Below are positions 1-9,083 of a stretch of 35,774 bases of DNA, piece by piece (position 1 is the stretch's first letter; each line of letters begins with the position of its first letter). This DNA is from Gammaproteobacteria bacterium (GTDB taxonomy: Bacteria; Pseudomonadota; Gammaproteobacteria; DSM-19610). The stretch covers positions 1 through 35,774 of the forward strand of contig JAPHQV010000053.1 of the NCBI GenBank assembly GCA_026197075.1. The letters are read 5' to 3'. The notes under the pieces are model-generated. The model saw nothing but the letters and a program-made list of their open reading frames with translations. It was not told where the DNA came from and did no database searches. Made by a program: the position numbers and the translations under genes.

Positions 1-38
1 GCGGAAGCTGAGGCAAACTACTACCGGCAACTCGCCAG

Positions 39-413
39 TCAGGATGCAATAGCCGCCTGACTTAAACCAAACAGCCTCCTCAAAACCCGGGGCGGTTCAT
101 TACGGCGACTTGCTTCAGACCAAAGGCTTTCAACACCGTCCTGAAGTTCAGATAGAGACATCCAAAGATCGTTGTAGAGCTTGAACTGGCCTTCAAAATA
201 GAGAGAAAACATAAGCTGTCGCTGTTGCGATTCAGCTTGTAGCTTATTCTTGATCTTCTCGAGCTCCGACGTGTACCGGAGCTTATCCTGCTCAAGAATT
301 CGATTAGCCCACACCTTTCCTAGCCAGGAACTGAGCCCGAATATAATCGCAGCTGCTCCACCAGCCGAGGCAAGGATTGCACCAGAAACAAGAAATACAT
401 CAGTTGCGTCCAT
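39..413 (-). CDS. small membrane protein with coiled coil, probably truncated
   Basis: This 124-residue protein has one N-terminal membrane helix (about residues 7-28), then a conserved-looking stretch GKVWANRI and a charged coiled coil (about 38-65). It ends in a segment rich in Leu and Trp. Proteins with this TM plus coiled-coil layout are common hypothetical cassette and defence-island genes and are, as I recall, usually longer. The coding frame stops at 39 in sequence that does not look like attC, so a 3' truncation or frameshift is possible. It starts just left of the second long attC-like palindrome (427-542), as the first gene of the next cassette. ATG at 413 is preceded by a GAGAAAGG ribosome-binding site. 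No enzymatic motif is visible and the function is unknown. Confidence 0.6.
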   Translation of the reverse strand: MDATDVFLVSGAILASAGGAAAIIFGLSSWLGKVWANRILEQDKLRYTSELEKIKNKLQAESQQRQLMFSLYFEGQFKLYNDLWMSLSELQDGVESLWSEASRRNEPPRVLRRLFGLSQAAIAS

Positions 414-426
414 CGCTACCTTTCTC

Positions 427-542
427 AGCTGACTCTTATTAGCGGGCGCACGCCCGATAACGCGAAACAGGGTGCACGCGCCCGGTTAATAGCCGATTTG
501 GGTGTGATATGGTGCAGATGCCCGATAACATTCTTGTTATGT
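427..542 (-). other. long attC-like site, copy 1 (degenerate)
   Basis: This is the counterpart of the site at 6277-6392, with the same inner palindromes and the same TAATAAGAG sequence before the junction. On the minus strand it runs from an R''-like box ending in AAC (plus gttatgt, 536-542) to an R'-like box (plus agctgac, 427-433). The latter departs from GTTRRRY, having GTCAGCT. The sequence diverges from copy 2 exactly at the expected crossover base, which supports a cassette junction here. No gene is visible between 432 and 790. Confidence 0.5.
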
Positions 543-883
543 CCCTGTATTCTTCGTTGTTATTGTTTCTCTTATAAGCTTTTTTCCCCGCCCCTGGCAA
601 CCCGGACCGGGTTAACGCGCAGACGCCTGTTTATCCCTGGAATGAACACTCATACGGGCACATGCCCGGTAAAACCATGGTTGGGGAGCAAAGCGGGCGC
701 GGTAACCGAATGATATCCAGATAAAAATTCCTACTCGCCCGTTTGTTGACATTCATGTACCGCCACTGGCCGGGGACTCCCCCGATCCATTCACCCGCAA
801 CAGCCACCGCCCTGCTGGATGGGCGGGCATTTCACCGTGCCGTAGGAGCAGAACACGCAGCAGTCGCCGGGTCTGGGTTTCAG
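432..883. repeat. 452-bp repeat, copy 1 (GDCCVxC cassette 3' part)
   Basis: This aligns end to end with 6282-6733 at high but imperfect identity, by eye above 80 percent. It comprises the 3' end of a GDCCVxC gene, about 250 bp of non-coding sequence with palindromes (for example around 655-672, GGGCACATGCCCG), and the long attC-like site. The alignment stops sharply at 432, the cassette junction, and at about 883, where a small inverted-repeat element begins. It looks like a diverged second copy of one cassette rather than a recent duplication. Confidence 0.85.
791..883 (-). pseudogene. truncated GDCCVxC protein gene (C-terminal 30 codons)
   Basis: The minus strand reads LKPRPGDCCVFCSYGTVKCP and on to a CCG end and a TGA at 791-793. 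This matches the C-terminal part of the intact gene at 6641-6853, with Tyr for Phe after CCVFCS. The 5' part, including the start and the two upstream CxxC pairs, is missing: homology ends at about 883, where the GGGGACA-repeat element starts. It is a gene remnant and should not be expressed as a folded protein. Confidence 0.8.
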
Positions 884-1040
884 AGACAAAGGAGACAAAG
901 GGGACGGACAAAGGGGACAGATTTATTTGTGAATGGCACTGCAAACATATCTACCTCATGCCTTTTCCACTCCAAACCAATCTCCACTTTTTATCCAAAT
1001 AAATCTGTCCCCTTTTCCACAGTCCCCTTTTCCAGCCCCT
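884..1040. mobile_element. small inverted-repeat (REP/MITE-like) element
   Basis: Perfect 20-bp inverted arms lie at 910-929 (AAAGGGGACAGATTTATTTG) and 996-1015, about 66 bp apart. They are flanked by direct GACAAAGG(G/A)GAC units on the left (885-918) and CCCCTTTTCC units on the right (1010-1042). The AAGGGGACAGATTTATTT motif is a widespread intergenic element that I associate with IS200-like REP transposases; no transposase is encoded here. The element abuts the broken GDCCVxC gene and sits where the attC of the DUF4041 cassette would be expected. From 1041 to 1145 I see no gene, only a weak CCGGG/CCCGG hairpin just after the DUF4041 stop codon. Confidence 0.65.
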
Positions 1041-1145
1041 TTTCCGCTCCCGTTGCTTCGGCTCATTGAGCACCAGATCGCATCCGCGCGAAATCTCGAA
1101 ATGTTTCTCGTTCGGGCTTCGCGTGCCGGGACTTACCCGGCGACA

Positions 1146-2486
1146 TCAACTACCACGAGGTGGCCTCCGACCTTCCGGCCAGTACCGAAGACTCTGCAAG
1201 AATTCAGTCGCTTCAACCCTCTCAGCGAATTCCAACAGATTGCCGACCTTCGCTTCCAGGACCTCTCTCACTTCGGCGGGAGTTGCGAAGAAGAACTCTT
1301 TCCGAGTGTTCACGCAGTTCAAGCGCCGGTCGGCGAAGTGCTGGTGTAGCTCAGCCTCCAGCCCAACGGCATCCTCCGAGAAAAAGAGGGCGTGCACGTC
1401 GAAGCGGAACGGCACCGAAGCACCCCCGAGTTCATTTACTCGGTCCAAGGGCTCCAGCCTTCGAGTCAGGCCGATCTTGATAACTCTGTCGCCGAAGGCA
1501 CCGCGGTTGGAAATAACATAAACGTATCCGGCCCGGATGTTTGCGGCCCGGTAGTCATTTTGGGCGATCGCCGCATCCAGTTCCGTAAGCCGGATCTCCA
1601 ACTCAGCGGCGTTGCCACCCGTGGCTTGGAGCTTCTGAATGGCATTAACGATATGGCTTCGCTCCTTGTCCAAGCGTTCGCGCTCTGCAGCCAGTTCCAT
1701 GGCCACCTTCCGCTCTTCACGAAGACGAACCCGCTCCTCTCGGGCCTCCTCTTTCTCCTCCTGCTTCTTCATGAGGAAATCCGCCGTGAGCTCGATCTCT
1801 TCAAGACGCAGGGCGTGAAACTCATCCGTTATGCTCATTTCCATCATCCGACCTAGCTTCGCGATGGCAGTCCGGGAGGCTTCGAGCCGCTTTTTTGCGG
1901 TGACGACGTTCCCAACCCGCAGCGTGCGAATACTGTTGTCCGCCTCGACGTTGTAGGCGCGGAGCATCAGTCTGCCCAGGTCGTTAGTCATCATGCGACC
2001 TTTGGCCAAGGATCCATCGTATGTGAACATCTCCGACTTCTGGATGCCCCTATCCGACTTCACGAGCATCGCGATACGCTCACTGAGGTCCGTCAGACGA
2101 TCACGATAGGCCGCAGCAGTCTCGAGTGGGTGATGGTACCGGTAGATGCCGACTTCCTGGAGGACCCGTTCATCGTTGAGGACTACCGTCTCCTCGGATG
2201 CCAAAGCCTCTAGCTGAAGACGAAGCGCTCGAAGTTCGCCCTCGAGCAGCGCGATCCGTGCATCACTATCGCCCGAGGAGACCACATGGAAATCGTTTTC
2301 GGGCGTCGAGGCAGTGGGGAAAGACTGTCCCTGTATCGCCTCCGCAGAGGCCGGCAGCCAAAGCTGCCAACCTTCAGGTGGTGGTGGCCACGAGGGATCC
2401 GGCGTCCAACCTTTCGGAGGCACCCATCCCGCCGGAGGCTTCGGCCAGCCCGGTGGTGGGTTGAATACAACGCCGCGATCACTCAT
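1146..2486 (-). CDS. DUF4041 and GIY-YIG (T5orf172) nuclease-like protein
   Basis: This is a 446-residue protein. Residues 8-45 are a Pro/Trp-rich repeat of PPxGW units. Residues about 75-235 match the DUF4041 pattern (EVGIYRY, KGRMMTNDLGRLMLRAYN, then a helical stretch). A long charged coiled coil (235-310) follows. Residues 320-410 are a T5orf172-type GIY-YIG domain with GYVYVIS at 320-326, KIGLTRR at 337-343, Arg349 and the KEFF glutamate at 397, so the catalytic residues appear intact. GIY-YIG domains cleave DNA. DUF4041 plus GIY-YIG is the core of the SNIPE antiphage nuclease, which is membrane-anchored; I see no membrane helix here. The start overlaps the stop of the upstream coiled-coil gene (ATGA), implying translational coupling. 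A role in phage defence is inferred from domain and context, not shown. Confidence 0.85.
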   Translation of the reverse strand: MSDRGVVFNPPPGWPKPPAGWVPPKGWTPDPSWPPPPEGWQLWLPASAEAIQGQSFPTASTPENDFHVVSSGDSDARIALLEGELRALRLQLEALASEETVVLNDERVLQEVGIYRYHHPLETAAAYRDRLTDLSERIAMLVKSDRGIQKSEMFTYDGSLAKGRMMTNDLGRLMLRAYNVEADNSIRTLRVGNVVTAKKRLEASRTAIAKLGRMMEMSITDEFHALRLEEIELTADFLMKKQEEKEEAREERVRLREERKVAMELAAERERLDKERSHIVNAIQKLQATGGNAAELEIRLTELDAAIAQNDYRAANIRAGYVYVISNRGAFGDRVIKIGLTRRLEPLDRVNELGGASVPFRFDVHALFFSEDAVGLEAELHQHFADRRLNCVNTRKEFFFATPAEVREVLEAKVGNLLEFAERVEATEFLQSLRYWPEGRRPPRGS

Positions 2487-3757
2487 GCCTTCCTCACACC
2501 TGTCGGATCGATCGGGACCAGTTCGTAGGGGTTTTTGGTGACAGCGGCACCCAGATGATCGAGAGTCGCGAGCGGTACTACCGACGAAAGATCGAACTTC
2601 ATGAAGGTCTCTCTGGCCGACGCTACGGCAACGAACGGTAGATAGGTGGCCAAGCCCGTGGCAGGATGAATCGTCTCGGTCCCGACTTCGAGTGAGATGG
2701 ACTGGATAATCCCTCGGCGGTCAGCCTCGAAGACCTCGTGCGGTATCCGAATAGCAACTTGGTGCACCGCACTGGCGTAGCGGTCCTTGCATGCCTTTTT
2801 AGAAAGCTGGCTTCCCGTAATCTCGTCGCTTGCCTTTGTGTATTTGTACGCTTTAACGGAGGGTACCTGATCAGGAGCCGGGACCACCGCACGAACTCGC
2901 AACTCTGCATGCGCGGGATCAAACTGGAATTCGGTAATCACAGGGAAATGGTCCGGGTAAACCGAGTTTGACATCACGATAGCGACGTACTCCTCGACTG
3001 CCTCGACCACACCATAACCCAGGTTCGAGGCCAGCTTGTCCACCGCAGCATTCTGTTCGGCTATCTTGGCCTCACGGGCCTCGCAATCCTTCGCGTACCT
3101 GGCCCTTTCAGCCTCGAGTTGCACCAACCGCCGTTCTTCATCGCGGACATGCGCCTCAAGTGCAGTCTTGTATTCGGCTTCAAGCCGCTTCACTGTCACC
3201 TTCCACTTCAATGAATCATCCTCGTGCTGCCTTCTTGCTTCCTCAAGGCGTTTCGCATGGCCCTTCTTGCCGAAAAGACCGAGCAGACCCGTAGGTGCGT
3301 CGGGCTCTATCAGTGCGGGCATTTCAGGAGACTCGGGCTTCGCTGGCGCTGGAATTGGTCGCTCGAGGTCGGGGCGATCGAACGGTGGATGCTTGACCTC
3401 TTGCTTCAACGTTTCCAAGTTAACGTGATCGTCCACAGATAGCGTGGCGGCCAGCAGTCCGTCGATCTCCGCGTATACCTCTTGGAGCTCTGCGTTGAGG
3501 TCGTCGACCTCGGCTAGTCTTGTCTCGAGGTGAGCAGCTGCCGCCTCCTTTTCGGCCTCCTTCTCCAGTCTCCTTAGTTCCGCGGCACTCGCTTTGGCCG
3601 CTTGTTGGCGGAGCCGCGCCTCTTGCTTTCTCCGCTGCTCGGTCGTCCGTTGGACTGCCCGCACTTCACGCTCGCGCCGACGCTGAGCACGCTCCGCCTC
3701 ACGTGCCGACGCCTGAATCGCCCTGTTGAGATCCGCCAAGAAGCTACGTCGCGCCAT
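2483..3757 (-). CDS. coiled-coil protein, partner of the GIY-YIG protein
   Basis: ATG at 3757, behind AGGAGAAGG, gives 424 residues. An upstream ATG at 3829 would lie inside the attC and is rejected. Residues 1-105 are an extremely charged coiled coil. Residues 120-155 are Pro-rich, with a GLLGLFGKKG patch at 157-166, and a second coiled coil spans 167-245. Residues 250-420 form a globular, beta-rich domain (VKAYKYTKASDEITG, then HLGAAVTKNPYELVPID at the end). From memory, this last domain resembles the segment that precedes an Mrr-type nuclease domain in some longer coiled-coil restriction endonucleases, but here the chain stops where the nuclease would begin. The 4-base overlap with the GIY-YIG gene suggests that the nuclease is supplied in trans. 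The family assignment needs a profile search. Confidence 0.75.
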   Translation of the reverse strand: MARRSFLADLNRAIQASAREAERAQRRREREVRAVQRTTEQRRKQEARLRQQAAKASAAELRRLEKEAEKEAAAAHLETRLAEVDDLNAELQEVYAEIDGLLAATLSVDDHVNLETLKQEVKHPPFDRPDLERPIPAPAKPESPEMPALIEPDAPTGLLGLFGKKGHAKRLEEARRQHEDDSLKWKVTVKRLEAEYKTALEAHVRDEERRLVQLEAERARYAKDCEAREAKIAEQNAAVDKLASNLGYGVVEAVEEYVAIVMSNSVYPDHFPVITEFQFDPAHAELRVRAVVPAPDQVPSVKAYKYTKASDEITGSQLSKKACKDRYASAVHQVAIRIPHEVFEADRRGIIQSISLEVGTETIHPATGLATYLPFVAVASARETFMKFDLSSVVPLATLDHLGAAVTKNPYELVPIDPTGVRKA

Positions 3758-3771
3758 TAACCTTCTCCTAG

Positions 3772-3843
3772 ATTGAACGCCTAAGCTGTGCGGTGCAAGC
3801 GAAGCGCAGCGTATTTTGCATCCGAACAATCGTCTTGTTATGC
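3772..3843 (-). other. attC site after the trypco2 gene
   Basis: On the minus strand the R'' box is GCATAAC (3843-3837) and the R' end is GTTCAAT (3778-3772). Internal arms CGGATGCAA and TTGCACCG pair with one bulged base, the extrahelical feature typical of attC. R'' complements the first bases of this cassette (TTATGC at 4328-4323), as it should in the circular form. It is 72 bp long and begins immediately after the trypco2 stop codon. Confidence 0.85.
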
Positions 3844-3844
3844 A

Positions 3845-4309
3845 TTACACTCCCATCCAGCTGCCACGACTCCGATTGTGATTCCGAATAGCCTCTGATT
3901 GCCTGCGTCGCTTTTCTCTTAGCATTTCATCTTGCTCTTTTAGCTGTTTTTCTGAAACCGCATCAACTGGGAGTCCCAACGGAACTTTAAAGCTAATTCT
4001 GTTAGTTGCGCTATTTGATGTGTTTTTTTCTACGCCGCCACCCACTTTCAATAGACTTGCGACCTGAAGCTTAGCCTTAGCTTCCCCGCCACTTTCTTCG
4101 ACCACAGTAACCGACACATCGAAATCCACGAGAAATATATTTTGGCCGTTGCTTAGAACGCCAAAATGAGATTCACTCGAGTTATTGGGATTTACGCGAT
4201 GCGCAGGATTAACAAAACCGCCACAATCGCGTACTTCTGTCTGGGCTGCCTCAATGCCCGCTGCAATTTGCGACAATGTTTCTTTTACAAATTCTTTAAG
4301 TTCCATCAT
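3845..4309 (-). CDS. trypco2-domain protein
   Basis: This is a 154-residue protein. Residues 1-115 fit the trypco2 (trypsin-co-occurring) pattern: an N-terminal helix LKEFVKETLSQIAAGIEAAQ, a GGFVNP turn at 30-35, a beta strand around VDFDVSVTVVEES (61-73), a small-residue stretch, and a closing strand ISFKVPLGLP (105-114). The tail from 118 is charged and helical. Known trypco domains are small components of predicted conflict systems, usually beside trypsin-like peptidases or other effectors. No peptidase is nearby, so this is a single-gene cassette (4328 to 3778). The DNA is visibly more AT-rich than its neighbours to the right. An ATG three bases downstream (4306) is an equally possible start. 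An immune role is inferred only. Confidence 0.75.
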   Translation of the reverse strand: MMELKEFVKETLSQIAAGIEAAQTEVRDCGGFVNPAHRVNPNNSSESHFGVLSNGQNIFLVDFDVSVTVVEESGGEAKAKLQVASLLKVGGGVEKNTSNSATNRISFKVPLGLPVDAVSEKQLKEQDEMLREKRRRQSEAIRNHNRSRGSWMGV

Positions 4310-4322
4310 CGTTCCCTTTTAT

Positions 4323-4385
4323 GCATAACACTGCCTTCAGCGGAAGATGTGCGTTAGCACCGATGTCCGCTGCACAGCGTTGTCA
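4323..4385 (-). other. attC site overlapping the 3' end of a membrane protein gene
   Basis: R' reads GTTATGC on the minus strand (4329-4323) and R'' reads TGACAAC (4385-4379), a weak fit. The arms TGCAGCGGA and TTCCGCTGAA pair closely with a bulge. It is 63 bp long. The preceding gene reads into the site and stops within its R' arm at 4337, so its last 16 or so residues are encoded by attC DNA, a situation often seen in cassette arrays. Confidence 0.8.
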
Positions 4386-4825
4386 TGCGCTGGTTCCATC
4401 ACCTTCCTCGACAAATCTCGCCAAACCCTGCTTGCTTCCTTTAAGCTTCGCTCTTCTAATTTCATTCGGATAATGCGTTGGAAGAGAATTAAAAACTGGC
4501 TTGAATATCCTTGATTTATTTTTTCTCTAATAGTATCTAATGTCATCATATTGTAAGAGTTAGCAGTCAGGTAACCAATAATCTGATCTTTAGCTATTTC
4601 TCGCTTTTTCTCATTATTTGAGCCAATCAACATAGCCACAACACCCAGAATATAAGCAATAAGAACAATACTGAGCGACCAATACTGAGCGCACAAACCA
4701 AATTCTAGCTTTTCAAGTATTCGCAACCATGCTTCGAACACAAAAGGAAGCGCAAGAAATGAGATAAGGAAAAGATCTAATGGCGATGCTTCCTTCAATG
4801 TTTTTAAAATTGTCTTAGGATCCAT
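4337..4825 (-). CDS. two-helix membrane protein of unknown function
   Basis: This 162-residue protein has two membrane helices (about 16-36 and 48-68), then a cytoplasmic region. Its segment KDQIIGYLTANSYNMMTLDT could form a winged-helix-like fold, and a basic helix (about 118-140) follows. The last 16 or so residues (from HDNAVQRTSV) are encoded by the attC and are probably not conserved. The gene shares a cassette (5322 to 4329) with the upstream membrane protein at 4890-5276, and no attC is evident between them. The DNA is AT-rich. I do not recognise the family. Its position among defence-type cassettes is the only functional hint. Confidence 0.65.
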   Translation of the reverse strand: MDPKTILKTLKEASPLDLFLISFLALPFVFEAWLRILEKLEFGLCAQYWSLSIVLIAYILGVVAMLIGSNNEKKREIAKDQIIGYLTANSYNMMTLDTIREKINQGYSSQFLILFQRIIRMKLEERSLKEASRVWRDLSRKVMEPAHDNAVQRTSVLTHIFR

Positions 4826-4889
4826 TGTTCGATTCTTTGTAATGGCTAGTGGTCGCTATAGCGAACTAAAATTATGCTTGCGGCATAGA

Positions 4890-5276
4890 TTACTGAGCGT
4901 GGCGTTTGGTATACGCAATCCTAAATACGATTGCGGCCGCATTGATAACATACCCAACTACCAGCACACCGAATAGCTCTCCAATAATTGATCCTCTTAA
5001 ATAGTCACCACCATCCAGATGCATGGAAATCTTTAAAGCAACAAGGCTAACTGCTACCGTTAAAAGGACAGCAAACAGGATCTTTTGATTCTTTATAAAA
5101 ATAGAAAAGGGGGCTAGGACAATCCAAAGCCATTCATCCACAAGATTAAACGTGATCCCGTTAATAAAAAATGCGACCTTCTCGCTATCCGCAAGGATTC
5201 CATAAATAACAACCAGAATCAGAATTGCAAGTAATGCCATGTGCACCTTGAGGCCACCAATATTGGTTGTATTCAT
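4890..5276 (-). CDS. four-helix membrane protein of unknown function
   Basis: The 128 residues contain four predicted membrane segments (about 12-28, 45-60, 65-84 and 97-118) and a short basic tail. ATG at 5276 follows a GAGGAG ribosome-binding site. The gene begins close after the attC at 5317-5413 and is the first of two membrane-protein genes in one cassette. The 64-bp gap to the next gene holds a perfect 12-bp palindrome (4853-4864, TCGCTATAGCGA) but no R'' or R' boxes, so either the two genes are one unit or an attC there has decayed. No catalytic motif is visible. A pore or effector role is possible but unsupported. Confidence 0.6.
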   Translation of the reverse strand: MNTTNIGGLKVHMALLAILILVVIYGILADSEKVAFFINGITFNLVDEWLWIVLAPFSIFIKNQKILFAVLLTVAVSLVALKISMHLDGGDYLRGSIIGELFGVLVVGYVINAAAIVFRIAYTKRHAQ

Positions 5277-5316
5277 TTGGACTCCTCTACAAGCCTTCGG
5301 TAATCAAATTGCCACC

Positions 5317-5413
5317 GCATAACGCCTGAGTTCAGCGGCGTTTGAGGCACCGCCTGTTTTGCGGCGGCAAAGCAGGCGGCGGATCAAACGTCCGCTGCAA
5401 CGATTTGTTGGGC
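5317..5413 (-). other. attC site after the Abi_C gene (clearest example)
   Basis: This is a textbook attC on the minus strand. R'' is GCCCAAC (5413-5407) and R' is GTTATGC (5323-5317). Outer arms TTGCAGCGGACGTTTGA and TCAAACGCCGCTGAA pair with an extrahelical base, and an inner GC-rich hairpin (about 5347-5383) closes the loop. It is 97 bp long. R'' is the exact complement of the cassette's first bases (TTGGGC at 6282-6277). The Abi_C stop codon lies one base before R''. Confidence 0.93.
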
Positions 5414-5414
5414 G

Positions 5415-6242
5415 TCATATGCTCCGCTCCAGGTGGGTTTCAAGCAGAAAGGTGGCAAGCGTTCCGGCGGCCCCAACCGCCAGGCGAGCGTGCCGTGGTC
5501 CGAGACCGCGAACTGACCCGTCTTTTCCATGACCCGTGCCGTATAAGTTTCTCAACTCTCCCAGGCCCTGTGCCACATTGCCTAGGTTGCTCAGCAAACG
5601 TCGAATAGCATCTGCACCTTTTGCGGAGTTTGGTATGGACTCAGGCACTAGCCCCAAAGCCTGCCGCGTTTCCTTCACTAGCTTTGGAACGTCGGCATCG
5701 GCTCGCAAATCTATACTTCGCTCGGCGAGGATGGTTTTACACACCGTTTCCACCAACTCCTTTGCAGTGCCAATGGCCAATGCGGGGTCAGCCTCGACCG
5801 CAGCGTTCATGCGTTCAATTTGGCGGTGCAGTTCAGGCATGTCGAGGTGCCCAACCGCATCGGCAATTCCTGCAAGTGCCTGATGATTCCGCACGGACGT
5901 GAGGCGCCCATTTTCATACCTGAACCCATCACGCTCAATCCACTTTTTAAGGAACTTGAACGCATTTTCAGCCCATTCCTGTCCATTTTCCGCAATGTCT
6001 TCGACAGAAAGCAGGACATTTTCATAGACCGTCAGGATCTTCCGAACATCCGACCATTTTGACCAATCGACGGAGTGGTAATACTGCTCGACCAAGGACC
6101 GGCGCTGTCCAGTTTCAGGCGGGTCGTACTCCCAATCGCACACTACATCTGCCGAATCGAACTCCTGCGAGATGGTTGAAAGCGAGGTGCCGACAAAATA
6201 TTCGCGGAACTCGATGCGCGTCTTCTTGCTGATGATGTCCAT
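5415..6242 (-). CDS. abortive infection (Abi_C domain) family protein
   Basis: This is a 275-residue protein. Residues 1-110 are an alpha-helical N-terminal region of the kind found in Abi-family proteins. Residues about 120-265 match the Abi_C domain (ALAIGTAKELVETVCKTIL at 155-173, PKLVKETRQALGL, then RNLYGTGHG at 231-239). R231-N and H238 form an R-x6-H arrangement within the R-x4-6-H motif of HEPN ribonucleases, so RNA cleavage is a reasonable inference. Family members are predicted to act by growth arrest on phage infection. The gene fills a single-gene cassette (6282 to 5323), starting about 40 bases from the cassette junction and stopping against the attC. Target, trigger and any partner are unknown. 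Confidence 0.85.
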   Translation of the reverse strand: MDIISKKTRIEFREYFVGTSLSTISQEFDSADVVCDWEYDPPETGQRRSLVEQYYHSVDWSKWSDVRKILTVYENVLLSVEDIAENGQEWAENAFKFLKKWIERDGFRYENGRLTSVRNHQALAGIADAVGHLDMPELHRQIERMNAAVEADPALAIGTAKELVETVCKTILAERSIDLRADADVPKLVKETRQALGLVPESIPNSAKGADAIRRLLSNLGNVAQGLGELRNLYGTGHGKDGSVRGLGPRHARLAVGAAGTLATFLLETHLERSI

Positions 6243-6276
6243 CGCTTCAGTATCCCGAAGACGTTCCGGTTATGAC

Positions 6277-6392
6277 GCCCAACTCTTATTAGCGGGTGAA
6301 CGCCCGATAACGCGAAACAGGGTGCGCGCGCCCGGTTAATAGCCGATTTGGGTGTGATATGGTGCAGACGCCCGATAACAATCTTGTTATTT
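6277..6392 (-). other. long attC-like site, copy 2 (after GDCCVxC gene)
   Basis: On the minus strand R' is GTTGGGC (6283-6277), shared with the start of the Abi_C cassette. The most likely R'' is AAATAAC (6392-6386), followed by AAGATTGTTATCGGGCG, which resembles other attC 5' arms. The 3' arm TCACCCGCTAATAAGAGTT pairs with it imperfectly. An alternative R'' is CAATAAC at 6415-6409, which exactly complements the cassette's first bases (TTATTG, 6886-6881) and would make the site about 139 bp. Either length is near that of Vibrio-type repeats. The region 6284-6640 otherwise holds only short palindromes (for example CGGGCACGTGCCCG at 6505-6518). Confidence 0.6.
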
Positions 6393-6733
6393 CCCCGTGT
6401 TCTTCGTTGTTATTGGTTTACTTATAAACTTTTCCCCCCGCCCCTGGCAACCTGGGCCGGATTAACGCGCAGGCGCACGTTTATCCCGGGAATGGCCACT
6501 TATACGGGCACGTGCCCGAAAATATCCATGATTGGGGAGCAAAGCGGTCGCGGTAACCGAATGATATTTAGTTAAAAAATCGTCCTCGCCCGTTTATTGA
6601 TATCCATATACCGCCACTGGCCGGGGACGCCCCGATCCATTCATCCGCAGCAGCCACCGCCCTGCTGGATGGGCGGGCATTTCACCGTGCCAAAGGAACA
6701 GAACACGCAGCAGTCGCCGGGCCTGGGTTTCAG
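6282..6733. repeat. 452-bp repeat, copy 2
   Basis: Partner of 432-883; see that entry. This copy is continuous with an intact GDCCVxC gene, whereas copy 1 is cut at its right edge by an inverted-repeat element. The two copies bracket the defence-type cassettes in direct orientation, so homologous recombination between them could delete or amplify the block 883-6282. Confidence 0.85.
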
Positions 6734-6853
6734 GAGCATGTGGCAGGACTCGCATTCGTAGTAGTACTGGCAGGCGTCCGTGGGCATGGTCTCGGTCTTC
6801 TGGTGACCGCAGTTCGGACAGGTGAGGGTGGATTCGAGGATCAGGTTGGGCAT
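6641..6853 (-). CDS. GDCCVxC motif cysteine-rich small protein
   Basis: The 70 residues contain CPNCG at 12-16, Cys28, CESC at 34-37, then GDCCVFCSFGTVKCPP at 46-61 and a GGGCCG tail: four cysteine groups suited to binding metal or to redox chemistry. This matches the GDCCVxC family, some members of which carry selenocysteine in the motif; here the motif uses Cys. Its biochemical role is, to my knowledge, not established. ATG at 6853 is preceded by AGGGAG and is preferred over an upstream ATG at 6883, which overlaps the cassette junction. The gene appears to be a cassette (6886 to 6283) with an unusually long 3' region. A broken second copy lies at 791-883. Confidence 0.8.
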   Translation of the reverse strand: MPNLILESTLTCPNCGHQKTETMPTDACQYYYECESCHMLLKPRPGDCCVFCSFGTVKCPPIQQGGGCCG

Positions 6854-6898
6854 GGTTGGCTCCCTGTCAGTAGTCACCCTCAATAACGCCAGGATTGT

Positions 6899-7192
6899 CT
6901 ATGCGGCCGAGAGCTTTAGTTTCCGCACCTGCTTAAGGTCTACATGCTTGCGGGCATGCCACAGGTCGTACTGATCCTGCATTGCCAGCCAGCTTTCGGG
7001 AGTTCGTCCAAGCGCCTTGGACAGGCGCAGCGCCATTTCGGGGGAGATATTGCTATCGCCATTCAGTAGCCGGTTAAGGGTGGATGCAGAAACCCCCAGG
7101 CTCTCTGCCACCTGGCGAGCACTGATATCGAATGGTGTTATGTAGACCTCGCGGATAAATTCTCCGGGATGAGGCGGGTTATGCATGGGCAT
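6899..7192 (-). CDS. higA: HigA-type antitoxin
   Basis: A 97-residue antitoxin with an N-terminal PPHPGEFIRE signature (residues about 6-15) and a central helix-turn-helix (ISARQVAESLGVSASTLNRL). This is followed by ALRLSKALGRTPESWLAMQ, all standard for the HigA/VapI XRE group. It neutralises HigB by binding it and represses the operon through DNA binding. Its ATG at 7192 overlaps the higB stop by one base (TGATG). A second in-frame ATG lies at 7186. Toxin-before-antitoxin order is usual for higBA. Such pairs are common in chromosomal integrons, where they are thought to stabilise the array. Confidence 0.9.
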   Translation of the reverse strand: MPMHNPPHPGEFIREVYITPFDISARQVAESLGVSASTLNRLLNGDSNISPEMALRLSKALGRTPESWLAMQDQYDLWHARKHVDLKQVRKLKLSAA

Positions 7193-7470
7193 CAGTGATA
7201 ATCCTCGTAATCGACCAGGTCCGCATTGCCATCCTGGAAGGTGAAGGTAACGCGCCAATTTCCGCTTACCGATACCGCCCATCGGCCTTTTAACTTCCCT
7301 TTCAGGGCATGCAACCCAAAACCCGGGATATCCATATCCTCGATTACAGTAGCGGTGTCCAGGGCAGCCATGAGCATTCGAATCCTGGCTGCATGGGCAG
7401 GCTGTATACCCGTCATGCGGCCATCTTCGAAGAAACGGCGCAGTCCCTTGTGCCGGATCGATAGAATCAT
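7192..7470 (-). CDS. higB: HigB-type (RelE superfamily) toxin
   Basis: The 92 residues match the HigB/RelE-like mRNA interferase family. The start is MILSIRHKGLRRFFEDG, the middle has LHALKGKLKGRWAVSVSGNWRV, and the end is the conserved DVDYEDYH-like motif (here LVDYEDYH). Members cleave mRNA at the ribosome and are counteracted by HigA, encoded directly downstream. The promoter region contains a palindrome between likely -35 and -10 boxes, consistent with autoregulation. The presumed transcription start lies only a base or so before the ATG, so the toxin message may be leaderless. The protein is full length. Confidence 0.9.
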   Translation of the reverse strand: MILSIRHKGLRRFFEDGRMTGIQPAHAARIRMLMAALDTATVIEDMDIPGFGLHALKGKLKGRWAVSVSGNWRVTFTFQDGNADLVDYEDYH

Positions 7471-7477
7471 TGGTGAA

Positions 7478-7505
7478 GCATAGCGTGTTGCGCTCCACGC
7501 AACAA
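7478..7505 (-). promoter_or_regulatory. higBA promoter and operator
   Basis: Reading the minus strand, TTGTTG (7505-7500) and TATGCT (7483-7478) are spaced by 16 bases, a fair sigma-70 promoter. A perfect palindrome with 7-bp arms TGTTGCG and CGCAACA (7486-7504, 5-bp spacer) sits between them, well placed for HigA repression. Confidence 0.6.
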
Positions 7506-7513
7506 CAGGTCAC

Positions 7514-7769
7514 AGGAATATTACAAAATACCCAGTATTTCCAGCGTATTAGAGCTGTCCATCCCTCTTGCCATGGTGGAAAGGGATTGCCGCGTCGCTT
7601 CGGCTCATAGAATCCCTTCGGGCTTCATCATGAGTACCTTACCCTTCGGGTCAAGGCATCCTCGCAATGACGGGTTGGGCGAGGGTTGGGCTTAGGTATG
7701 GATTGCGGCATTCGCCGCAATGACGGGGAAGGGACGCCCTGGCGGGAATGTCGGAGCGCTGTTCCCGGC
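7514..7769. other. intergenic transition from cassette array to backbone
   Basis: No gene is visible. The stretch 7560-7750 holds repetitive intergenic sequence, including a hairpin ATTGCGGCA/TTCGCCGCAAT at 7702-7721 and GCAATGACGGG-type motifs related to the REP family. The cassette array probably meets the stable chromosome here. No integrase gene or clear attI is present. Confidence 0.5.
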
Positions 7770-9083
7770 TCAGTGCAGCTTGATCTCCGGATGCACGCTG
7801 GCGCGGAAGCGGTTGGCGATGCTGAGCATCATGGTGCGGTAGAAGCCGAACAGGGCGAGCTGGTGCATTTTGTAGAGGGACAGGTACACCATGCGGGCCA
7901 GGAAGCCTTCCACCATGACGGTGCCGGTGAGGTTGCCCATGAGGTTGCCGACGGTGCTGTACTTGCCCAGCGACACCAGCGAGCCGTAGTCGCGGTAGTG
8001 GTAGAAGGGCAGCGGTTCGCCCTTGAGGCGGGCGCATATACTGCGCACCAGCAGGGAGGCCTGCTGGTGGGCGGACTGGGCGCGGGGCGGCACGGTGCCC
8101 TGGCCGTCCTTGCAGGGGCAGGCGGCGCAGTCGCCGAAGGCGAAGATGTTTTCGTCGCGGGTGGTCTGCAGGGTGGGCTTGACCACCAGCTGGTGGATGC
8201 GGTTGGTCTCCAGGCCGTCCAGGTCGGCGAGGAAGTCCGGCGCCTTGATGCCGGCGGCCCACACCTTGAGGTTGGCGGTGATGCGCCGGCCGCTTTCGGT
8301 GTGGATGGCGTCGGCGTCCACCTTCACCACCCGCTCTCCCTTGAACACCTCGATGCCGAGCTTGTGCAGTTCGTCTTCCGTGGACTGGGACAGGCGTGGC
8401 GGCAGGCCGGGCAGGATGCGGTCGGCGGCCTCGATGATGCTGATCTTGATGTCAGCGGGGCTGATCTGGTCCAGGCCGTAGACCTTGAACAGGCGCGACA
8501 CCTTGTGCAGCTGTGCCGCCAGTTCCACGCCGGTGGCGCCGCCGCCGGCGATGGCCACGTCGAGCTGACCTTCCTCCAGGGGCTGTTCCTGGGCATGGGC
8601 GTGGACGAAGGATTCCAGCAGACGGTTCTGGAAGGCCTCGGCCTGTTCGCGGGTGTCGAGGAAGCGGCAGTGCTCGCGCACGCCTTCGATGCCGAAGTCG
8701 TTGCTGACGCTGCCCACGGCGATGACCAGGGTGTCGTAGCCGAAGCGGCGCGCGGGGATGATCTCCTCGCCGGCGCTGTTGAGGGTGGGCGCCAGCTGGA
8801 TCTCGCTGCGTTCGCGGTCCAGGCCCACCATGCGGCCCAGGCGGTAGCGGAAGTGGTTGCGCGCGCCCTGGGCCAGGTATTCGATCTGGTTTTCGTAGGA
8901 ATCGAAGGTGCCGGCGGCCACTTCGTGCAGCAGCGGTTTCCAGATGTGGGCGCGGGAGGCGTCCACCAGGGTGATGTGGGCCTTGCCGCGCTTGCCGAGC
9001 TTGTTGCCCAGCCGGGTGGCCAGTTCCAGGCCGCCGGCGCCCCCGCCGACGATGAGGATGCGATGGGGGCTGGTTGTGGTCAT
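7770..9083 (-). CDS. ndh: type II NADH dehydrogenase (NDH-2)
   Basis: This 437-residue FAD-dependent NADH:quinone oxidoreductase works at the membrane without pumping protons. It has a dinucleotide-binding motif ILIVGGGAGGLELA near residues 8-21, a second Rossmann motif VAIAGGGATGVELAAQ mid-protein, the ANLKVWAAGIKAPDFL segment, and the FAFGDCAACP motif that closes the FAD site. C-terminal hydrophobic and basic stretches would hold it to the membrane. ATG at 9083 overlaps the upstream transhydrogenase stop by four bases, so the two are co-translated. Pairing an NADH oxidase with a transhydrogenase suggests a redox-balancing unit that can bypass complex I (encoded at the right end of the window). 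Confidence 0.92.
   Translation of the reverse strand: MTTTSPHRILIVGGGAGGLELATRLGNKLGKRGKAHITLVDASRAHIWKPLLHEVAAGTFDSYENQIEYLAQGARNHFRYRLGRMVGLDRERSEIQLAPTLNSAGEEIIPARRFGYDTLVIAVGSVSNDFGIEGVREHCRFLDTREQAEAFQNRLLESFVHAHAQEQPLEEGQLDVAIAGGGATGVELAAQLHKVSRLFKVYGLDQISPADIKISIIEAADRILPGLPPRLSQSTEDELHKLGIEVFKGERVVKVDADAIHTESGRRITANLKVWAAGIKAPDFLADLDGLETNRIHQLVVKPTLQTTRDENIFAFGDCAACPCKDGQGTVPPRAQSAHQQASLLVRSICARLKGEPLPFYHYRDYGSLVSLGKYSTVGNLMGNLTGTVMVEGFLARMVYLSLYKMHQLALFGFYRTMMLSIANRFRASVHPEIKLH

Follow-up and report, generated by a model that had tools for sequence, protein, structure and literature searches.

The origin of CALINs is debated, and in the available part of one account off-target insertion, loss of the integrase gene (intI) and rearrangement are each proposed (PMC8618304). 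That intI can be lost while the arrays stay behind is already known, and in Xanthomonas, according to the available portion of the relevant report, intI is truncated or lost in most strains (PMC12444791). With regard to the attI site, the text available from PMC9024848 indicates that sites outside class 1 integrons are poorly described and that IntegronFinder does not detect them. A search of the literature, with most subscription papers outside its reach, turned up no description of CALINs headed at several loci by attI sites without intI.

Here we describe a locus at which the non-coding tail behind a chromosomal gene is very probably an orphan attI, that is, an integron's primary cassette-entry site together with its cassette promoter, standing without an integrase. 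A cassette begins at the tail's crossover base and no intI adjoins it.

The GDCCVxC locus and its tail

The window, meaning the whole stretch of 35,774 nucleotides that was analysed, is contig C52 of the 2.99-Mb genome G000 (59 contigs), the congener of which is G001. Read along the minus strand, an oxidoreductase gene is followed by higBA, GDCCVxC, the tail and then integron cassettes, with Abi_C first (Table 1). The tail measures 357 bp (6284-6640) from the GDCCVxC stop to the next cassette, so that the stretch of about 360 bp noted behind this 70-codon gene by the first-pass annotation is real. GDCCVxC adjoins a higA-like gene in both species, which places it at the same chromosomal spot in G000 and G001. 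According to NCBIfam the GDCCVxC family is one of (seleno)proteins; the copy at 6641-6853 has cysteines. The tail is also present without GDCCVxC, behind ligA (NF005932), in both species, and the ligA copy of G000 is here called c3, alongside c1 and c2 in the window.

The second copy in the window (432-883, with its tail part at 432-787) is 89% identical to the first, and its GDCCVxC gene is shortened. By eye, this copy is cut at a MITE-like inverted-repeat stretch at 889-1146 (AAAGGGGACAGATTTATTT). The same ~98 bp opens both this contig and that of c3 (window 1-99, L029:1-98); on inspection by eye this looks like an IS end interrupting the assembly within a cassette. Palindromes had been said to be preserved in both copies, and this holds in part: CGGGCACGTGCCCG at 6505-6518 is kept with one change in its counterpart at 655 (CGGGCACATGCCCG), whereas CGCCCGATAAC is exact twice in the first copy (at 6301 and 6369) and once only in the second (at 451).

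Table 1. Coordinates of features in the window
Feature	Position	Strand	Evidence or remark
Second orphan attI-B core, copy c2; crossover base 433	433-562	-	profile E 1e-12
c2 leader and 3' fragment of second GDCCVxC gene	563-889	-	24-residue tblastn match 818-889
attC of Abi_C cassette	5317-5413	-	fold z -5.66
First cassette behind c1, with Abi_C gene at 5415-6242	5323-6282	-	PF14355; R'' match
R box GTTGGGC	6277-6283	-	TTGGGC is part of the inserted Abi_C cassette; complements the cassette's R'' 9/9
Orphan attI-B core, copy c1; crossover base G = 6283	6283-6412	-	linked-site profile E 2.4e-9, match 6391-6287; 24-site alignment
L box CGCTAAT	6288-6294	-	column counts, 23 of 24 sites
attI leader ORF, 30 codons, TTG start, stop at crossover	6289-6381	-	frame conserved over 24 sites
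Proximal repeat GTTATCGGGCG	6301-6311	-	
Middle repeat TTAACCGGGCG	6329-6339	-	
Distal repeat GTTATCGGGCG	6369-6379	-	
Remainder of shared intI-attI leader, without intI and without SOS box	6413-6612	-	tails profile spans 6285-6619; no CTG-N10-CAG
-10-like TATAAG of Pc-like promoter	6421-6426	-	looser own scoring
-35-like TTGCCA, 168 bp upstream of crossover	6445-6450	-	looser own scoring
GDCCVxC gene, 70 codons	6641-6853	-	NCBIfam NF041374, 109 bits; chromosomal neighbour, outside the recombination site
higBA toxin-antitoxin pair, chromosomal flank	6899-7470	-	TIGR02607, PF05015

Homology to attI sites beside integrase genes

For comparison, 12 stretches surrounding family intI genes were retrieved, and the DNA upstream of intI was taken from 40 intI loci (22-650 bp per locus, some shortened by contig ends). 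A profile of the four tails (c1, c2, c3 and the ligA copy of G001) matched five of the 40 upstream stretches at E <= 4.4e-4, namely those of G006, G002, G010, G015 and G005, and a sixth, that of G016, at E 0.1. All six belong to family f1 and lie in the cassette direction; the matches in G006, G002, G015 and G005 end at most 4 bases from the end of the profile, and those in G010 and G016 earlier. On the minus strand of the same 40 regions the best values were 0.0066 (G002) and 0.028 (G005), which fall short of the five plus-strand matches without being negligible.

The reverse comparison is the stronger test. A profile of the five intI-linked attI sites, built without the tails, found c3 at E 6.3e-15, c2 at 1e-12, c1 at 2.4e-9 and the ligA copy of G001 at 9.9e-9, with the next match among all loci fetched by then at E 0.14, and the tail matches end at the crossover. 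Taken alone, c1 is a moderate match to the linked sites at this value. As judged from these profiles, homology to the attI sites of IntI-B in sister genera extends over the last ~130 bp of the tail (6283-6412, minus strand), and the earlier suggestion of a recombination-related site, perhaps attI-like, is thereby borne out.

When 369 genomes of the class were searched with the tail DNA, two genomes appear among the matches listed, its own and G293, the latter with a single 20-bp match taken for chance; c3 is not among the matches listed. The tail together with its gene, searched against 186 relatives, gave a match in 24, with the gene part only outside this genus. Two attI regions beside intI show irregularities: the attI core of G010 (L084 from ~1929) is interrupted after GTTAACGCGCC, apparently by an insertion, and the attI region of G005 (L079:139-388) holds a partial second copy of the repeat block.

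Anatomy of the attI-B site

The attI-B sites share a fixed G|TT crossover at which cassettes start, an L box and upstream direct repeats. The crossover motif is GTTRRRY, at the same position across sites; all 23 sites counted (of 24) have A at -8, G at -1 and T at +1, and three of the 23 have TC in place of TT at the crossover. When the sites are aligned at the crossover, GTTAT-CGGGCG-like repeats fall near -96, -57 and -28, and the 24 sites hold 59 repeat-like matches against 7.7 expected from shuffles.

Upstream of the core, all four tails carry a TTGCCA-N17/18-TATAAR pair with the -35 hexamer 166-175 before the crossover, and TTGxxA hexamers occur 167-176 before the crossover in four of the five intI-linked sites. 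A standard scan for promoters and terminators listed nothing in 6200-7000 or in L029 1100-1700; no -10 is listed at TATAAG because the scan demands a final T. In a looser scoring of our own the Pc-like site is the top candidate in all four tails as well as in G002, G016 and G005, takes third place in G015 and falls outside the best three in G006. An SOS box (CTG-N10-CAG) is found at 385-398 in five linked sites and is absent from the four tails. An SOS-like palindrome behind ligA in c3 was considered and dropped, having 9 rather than 10 bases between its halves and lying at another distance.

A leader ORF runs through the repeats to the crossover. Its start codon stands at -99 in half of the sites (12/24), and 11 of those reach a stop in the last 12 bases. 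Of the 24 sites, 18 have this frame open, compared with 9 and 7 for the two other frames, and a stop at -9 to -1 occurs in it in every site (24/24), against 0 and 0 for the others. The Pc-like promoter and the leader ORF may contribute to expression of the first cassette, a role that Pc and ORF-11 have in attI1.

Distribution of attI-B across the family

Of the 20 family genomes, 14 matched a sequence-only model built from 9 sites at E <= 0.01; among 166 other genomes, 3 did so at E <= 0.001, with a strong match only in G140. Eight of the 31 model-match rows were left out before the 24-site set was formed: three were second matches at loci of G003 and G005, one was G010:C167 with its interrupted core, and four (G019:C87, G000:C34, G016:C18 and G009:C219) were without a crossover or were not pursued. 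Also left out were G140:L137 (end lost) and the GDCCVxC copy of G001 (core lost); G013:C60 and G016:C25 were kept though weak (E 0.002). Among the 24 sites, an intact intI adjoins five and a truncated intI adjoins one (G140); the other 18 are without intI, and four of these lie in G000 and its congener. At 16 candidate loci, tblastn with five IntI proteins found no intI (best E 0.04).

Setting c2 aside, 16 of the 17 intI-less sites have a co-oriented gene that ends ~160-740 bp before the crossover, the exception being G002:C91. The host genes of orphan sites are ligA (twice), recG (twice), uvrA, tag and genes for an HhH-GPD glycosylase, a serine/threonine kinase, rubrerythrin, a GGDEF protein and a TPR protein, as well as valS, plsC, msrQ, a nasA-like gene and GDCCVxC. 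By raw count, DNA repair genes (ligA, recG twice, uvrA, tag and the HhH-GPD glycosylase) are frequent among them.

Copies in the same genome tend to be the most alike (98% in G002, 81% in G140, 76% in G003 and 73-90% in this genus), with G015 and G006 as genomes whose own copies are not. In six of seven copy pairs similarity is higher over the 65 bp next to the crossover than over the outermost full 65 bp, c3 against the ligA copy of G001 being the exception. In G140, one of the six pairs, a transposase gene lies upstream of one copy.

The integrase and its loss

At c1 there is no intI beside the attI, as there is in a complete integron. G000 encodes a single IntI above the family cut-off (contig C35, 497 bits), the attI of which is matched by neither profile. 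In a tree of 40 IntI proteins it groups with those of G003 and G017, one of the two of G006 and members of other families, while IntI-B, with seven family members, is a clade of its own (support 100/99) that holds every IntI with a tail-like attI and excludes the IntI of G000. Since the only IntI of G000 thus belongs to another clade with another attI, the IntI-B cognate to the tails was not found in that genome. By eye, the neighbour of the G000 intI is apaH/apaG, for which Pfam gives Metallophos; the cco names in G002 were likewise assigned by eye, except FixG_C. On G000:C34 (L116:1503-1563) a weak attI-B-like match is followed by a 15-residue match resembling an IntI C-terminus (best E 0.04), and this may be a further relic in G000.

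Sister loci display successive states. Behind recG, intI and attI-B stand together in G005, G010, G015 and G016, and attI-B stands alone in G009 and G013 (a weak match in G013). At a nasA-like gene, intI is present in G003 and G009, attI-B and an SOS box remain without intI in G010, and in G140 the locus has an SOS box and a truncated intI-B of ~90 residues, 66% identical to that of G002. G002:C91 also retains the SOS box without intI, and its homology to the linked copy spans from the box to the crossover and not into intI. At these loci the orphan sites stand where intI was lost, and c1 and the ligA copy would have arisen in the same manner.

Cassettes behind orphan sites and possible use in trans

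The c1 array is a CALIN in that it has at least two attC sites and no intI nearby; one attC was recognized by folding, the second by 87-88% identity over 57-68 bp to other arrays. Further attC sites in this array were noted by eye only. The R'' of the Abi_C cassette (5407-5413) is the exact complement of GTTGGGC at 6277-6283. More widely, 20 intI-less places allowed this comparison. In 11 of them the R'' of the first cassette matches that cassette's start at 8/9 or 9/9 bases, and in the remaining nine at 7/9 or fewer, against 16% of 3327 random GTT starts that reach at least 8/9; the 20 are all the intI-less places with more than a few bases downstream, weak ones included. At c2 the first cassette begins with TC rather than TT, and its attC is cut off by the IS end.

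The first cassettes differ between G000 and G001 at both orphan loci. In G001 the GDCCVxC copy is without the attI core, and a cassette starts at A|TT right behind a -10-like box (L030 ~6044-6055, G001:C106). A 517-bp stretch, 94% identical, is common to the IntI-A array of G003 and the orphan tag array of G016. A gene-less first cassette of ~270 bp with a strong hairpin, ~74% identical among its occurrences, lies behind the orphan attI in G000 (ligA), G003 (near ligA) and G007, at L029 ~916-1185 and in L120 and L122 after their crossovers, and is perhaps an RNA cassette.

IntI produced from another locus of the genome (at present IntI-A, formerly IntI-B) may insert and remove cassettes at the orphan sites in trans, which would keep these sites in use. 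The R'' fits, the differences between species and the shared 517-bp stretch are compatible with such activity and are not proof of it. We tentatively extend this to a distributed integron, in which one IntI serves several attI sites behind housekeeping genes and fills many arrays in trans, so that CALINs would be secondary docks and not wrecks; we regard this as possible rather than probable. A weaker form of the orphan-attI explanation, in which the attI was left after loss of intI, is unused and has its cassettes frozen, is a serious contender that also falls short of being probable. The absence of the cognate IntI-B from G000 and the loss of the attI core from the GDCCVxC copy of G001 count in favour of such a dead relic, but the difference in first cassettes between the two species at both loci, the greater likeness of copies on the crossover side and the open leader frame speak against it. 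The differing first cassettes, for their part, could also have come from excision alone or from insertions that predate an independent loss of intI in each species.

Other readings of the tail

A structured RNA or riboswitch-like leader, the former suggested by the first-pass annotation, is highly unlikely: Rfam gave no match up to E 2 in window 1-9000, and the covariation term of the consensus fold of 9 sites is 0.09. Two inverted repeat arms do pair in a consensus stem of 11 pairs, 4 of which have changed on both sides, but repeats bound by one protein would likewise change together. The riboswitch proposed for class 1 integrons is traced, in the available text of PMC8876359, to attI1 with ORF-11.

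The annotation had further taken GDCCVxC for a cassette with an unusually long attC, a palindrome of 115-140 bp, bounded by GTTGGGC at 6277-6283. The 149 nt from 6277 to 6425 fold no better than shuffles (z -0.47; 57 of 200 as good), whereas the true attC of the next cassette (5317-5414) folds at z -5.66 with 0 of 200 shuffles as good, and the tail does not form the R''/L''-L'/R' single-strand hairpin of an attC. GTTGGGC instead begins the Abi_C cassette and, with the crossover base at 6283, the boundary that was drawn reaches 6 bp into that cassette. A cassette does start at 6282/6283 and inverted arms do lie within the stretch, but given the fold, the same tail behind ligA without GDCCVxC and the homology to attI sites adjoining intI, a giant attC of VCR size deserves hardly any credence; with the gene at the same chromosomal spot in the congener, its status as an integron cassette finds no support. 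Insertion by an IntI from elsewhere at a chance genomic GTT, an attG-type secondary site, belongs to the off-target mechanisms proposed for CALINs in the available part of PMC8618304, but is very hard to reconcile with ~130 bp of homology among the sites and to intI-linked attI, or with the conserved promoter spacing and leader frame.

Comparison with known integron systems

The arrays described here can be read: they start at a true attI, occur several to a genome and include intermediate stages of intI loss. They yield a family of 24 attI sites in which promoter spacing and a leader ORF are conserved. Should orphan sites be used by IntI in trans, the view of one integrase and one entry site would need widening, and attI-guided searches could then explain the recurrence of CALINs at fixed loci elsewhere.

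Among described sites, attI1 of class 1 integrons, as presented in the available parts of PMC12901181 and PMC8876359, is alike in its G|TTRRRY crossover, adjoining L box, upstream direct repeats and Pc, and in a short ORF (ORF-11; PMC8876359) that runs to the crossover as the attI-B leader ORF does. The two differ in that attI-B has three repeats and attI1 two, the attI-B leader ORF has ~30 codons and its own stop, and no intI adjoins the orphan site; no sequence identity between them is claimed. The c1 array resembles a CALIN as a cassette array on a contig without intI, but is headed by a recognizable attI with a promoter, which is absent from the CALIN definition. The CALINs of Xanthomonas are similar in that integrase-less arrays occupy the same few chromosomal loci across species, and differ from the attI-B arrays in that the available portion of PMC12444791 reports no attI there. 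Delta-attI-type cassettes of class 1 and 2 integrons likewise place attI sequence away from intI, as c2 does inside an array, but according to the available text of PMC12901181 the delta-attI pieces are mostly 14-18 nt long and in mobile integrons, whereas the attI sequences described here extend over 130-350 bp at several chromosomal loci.
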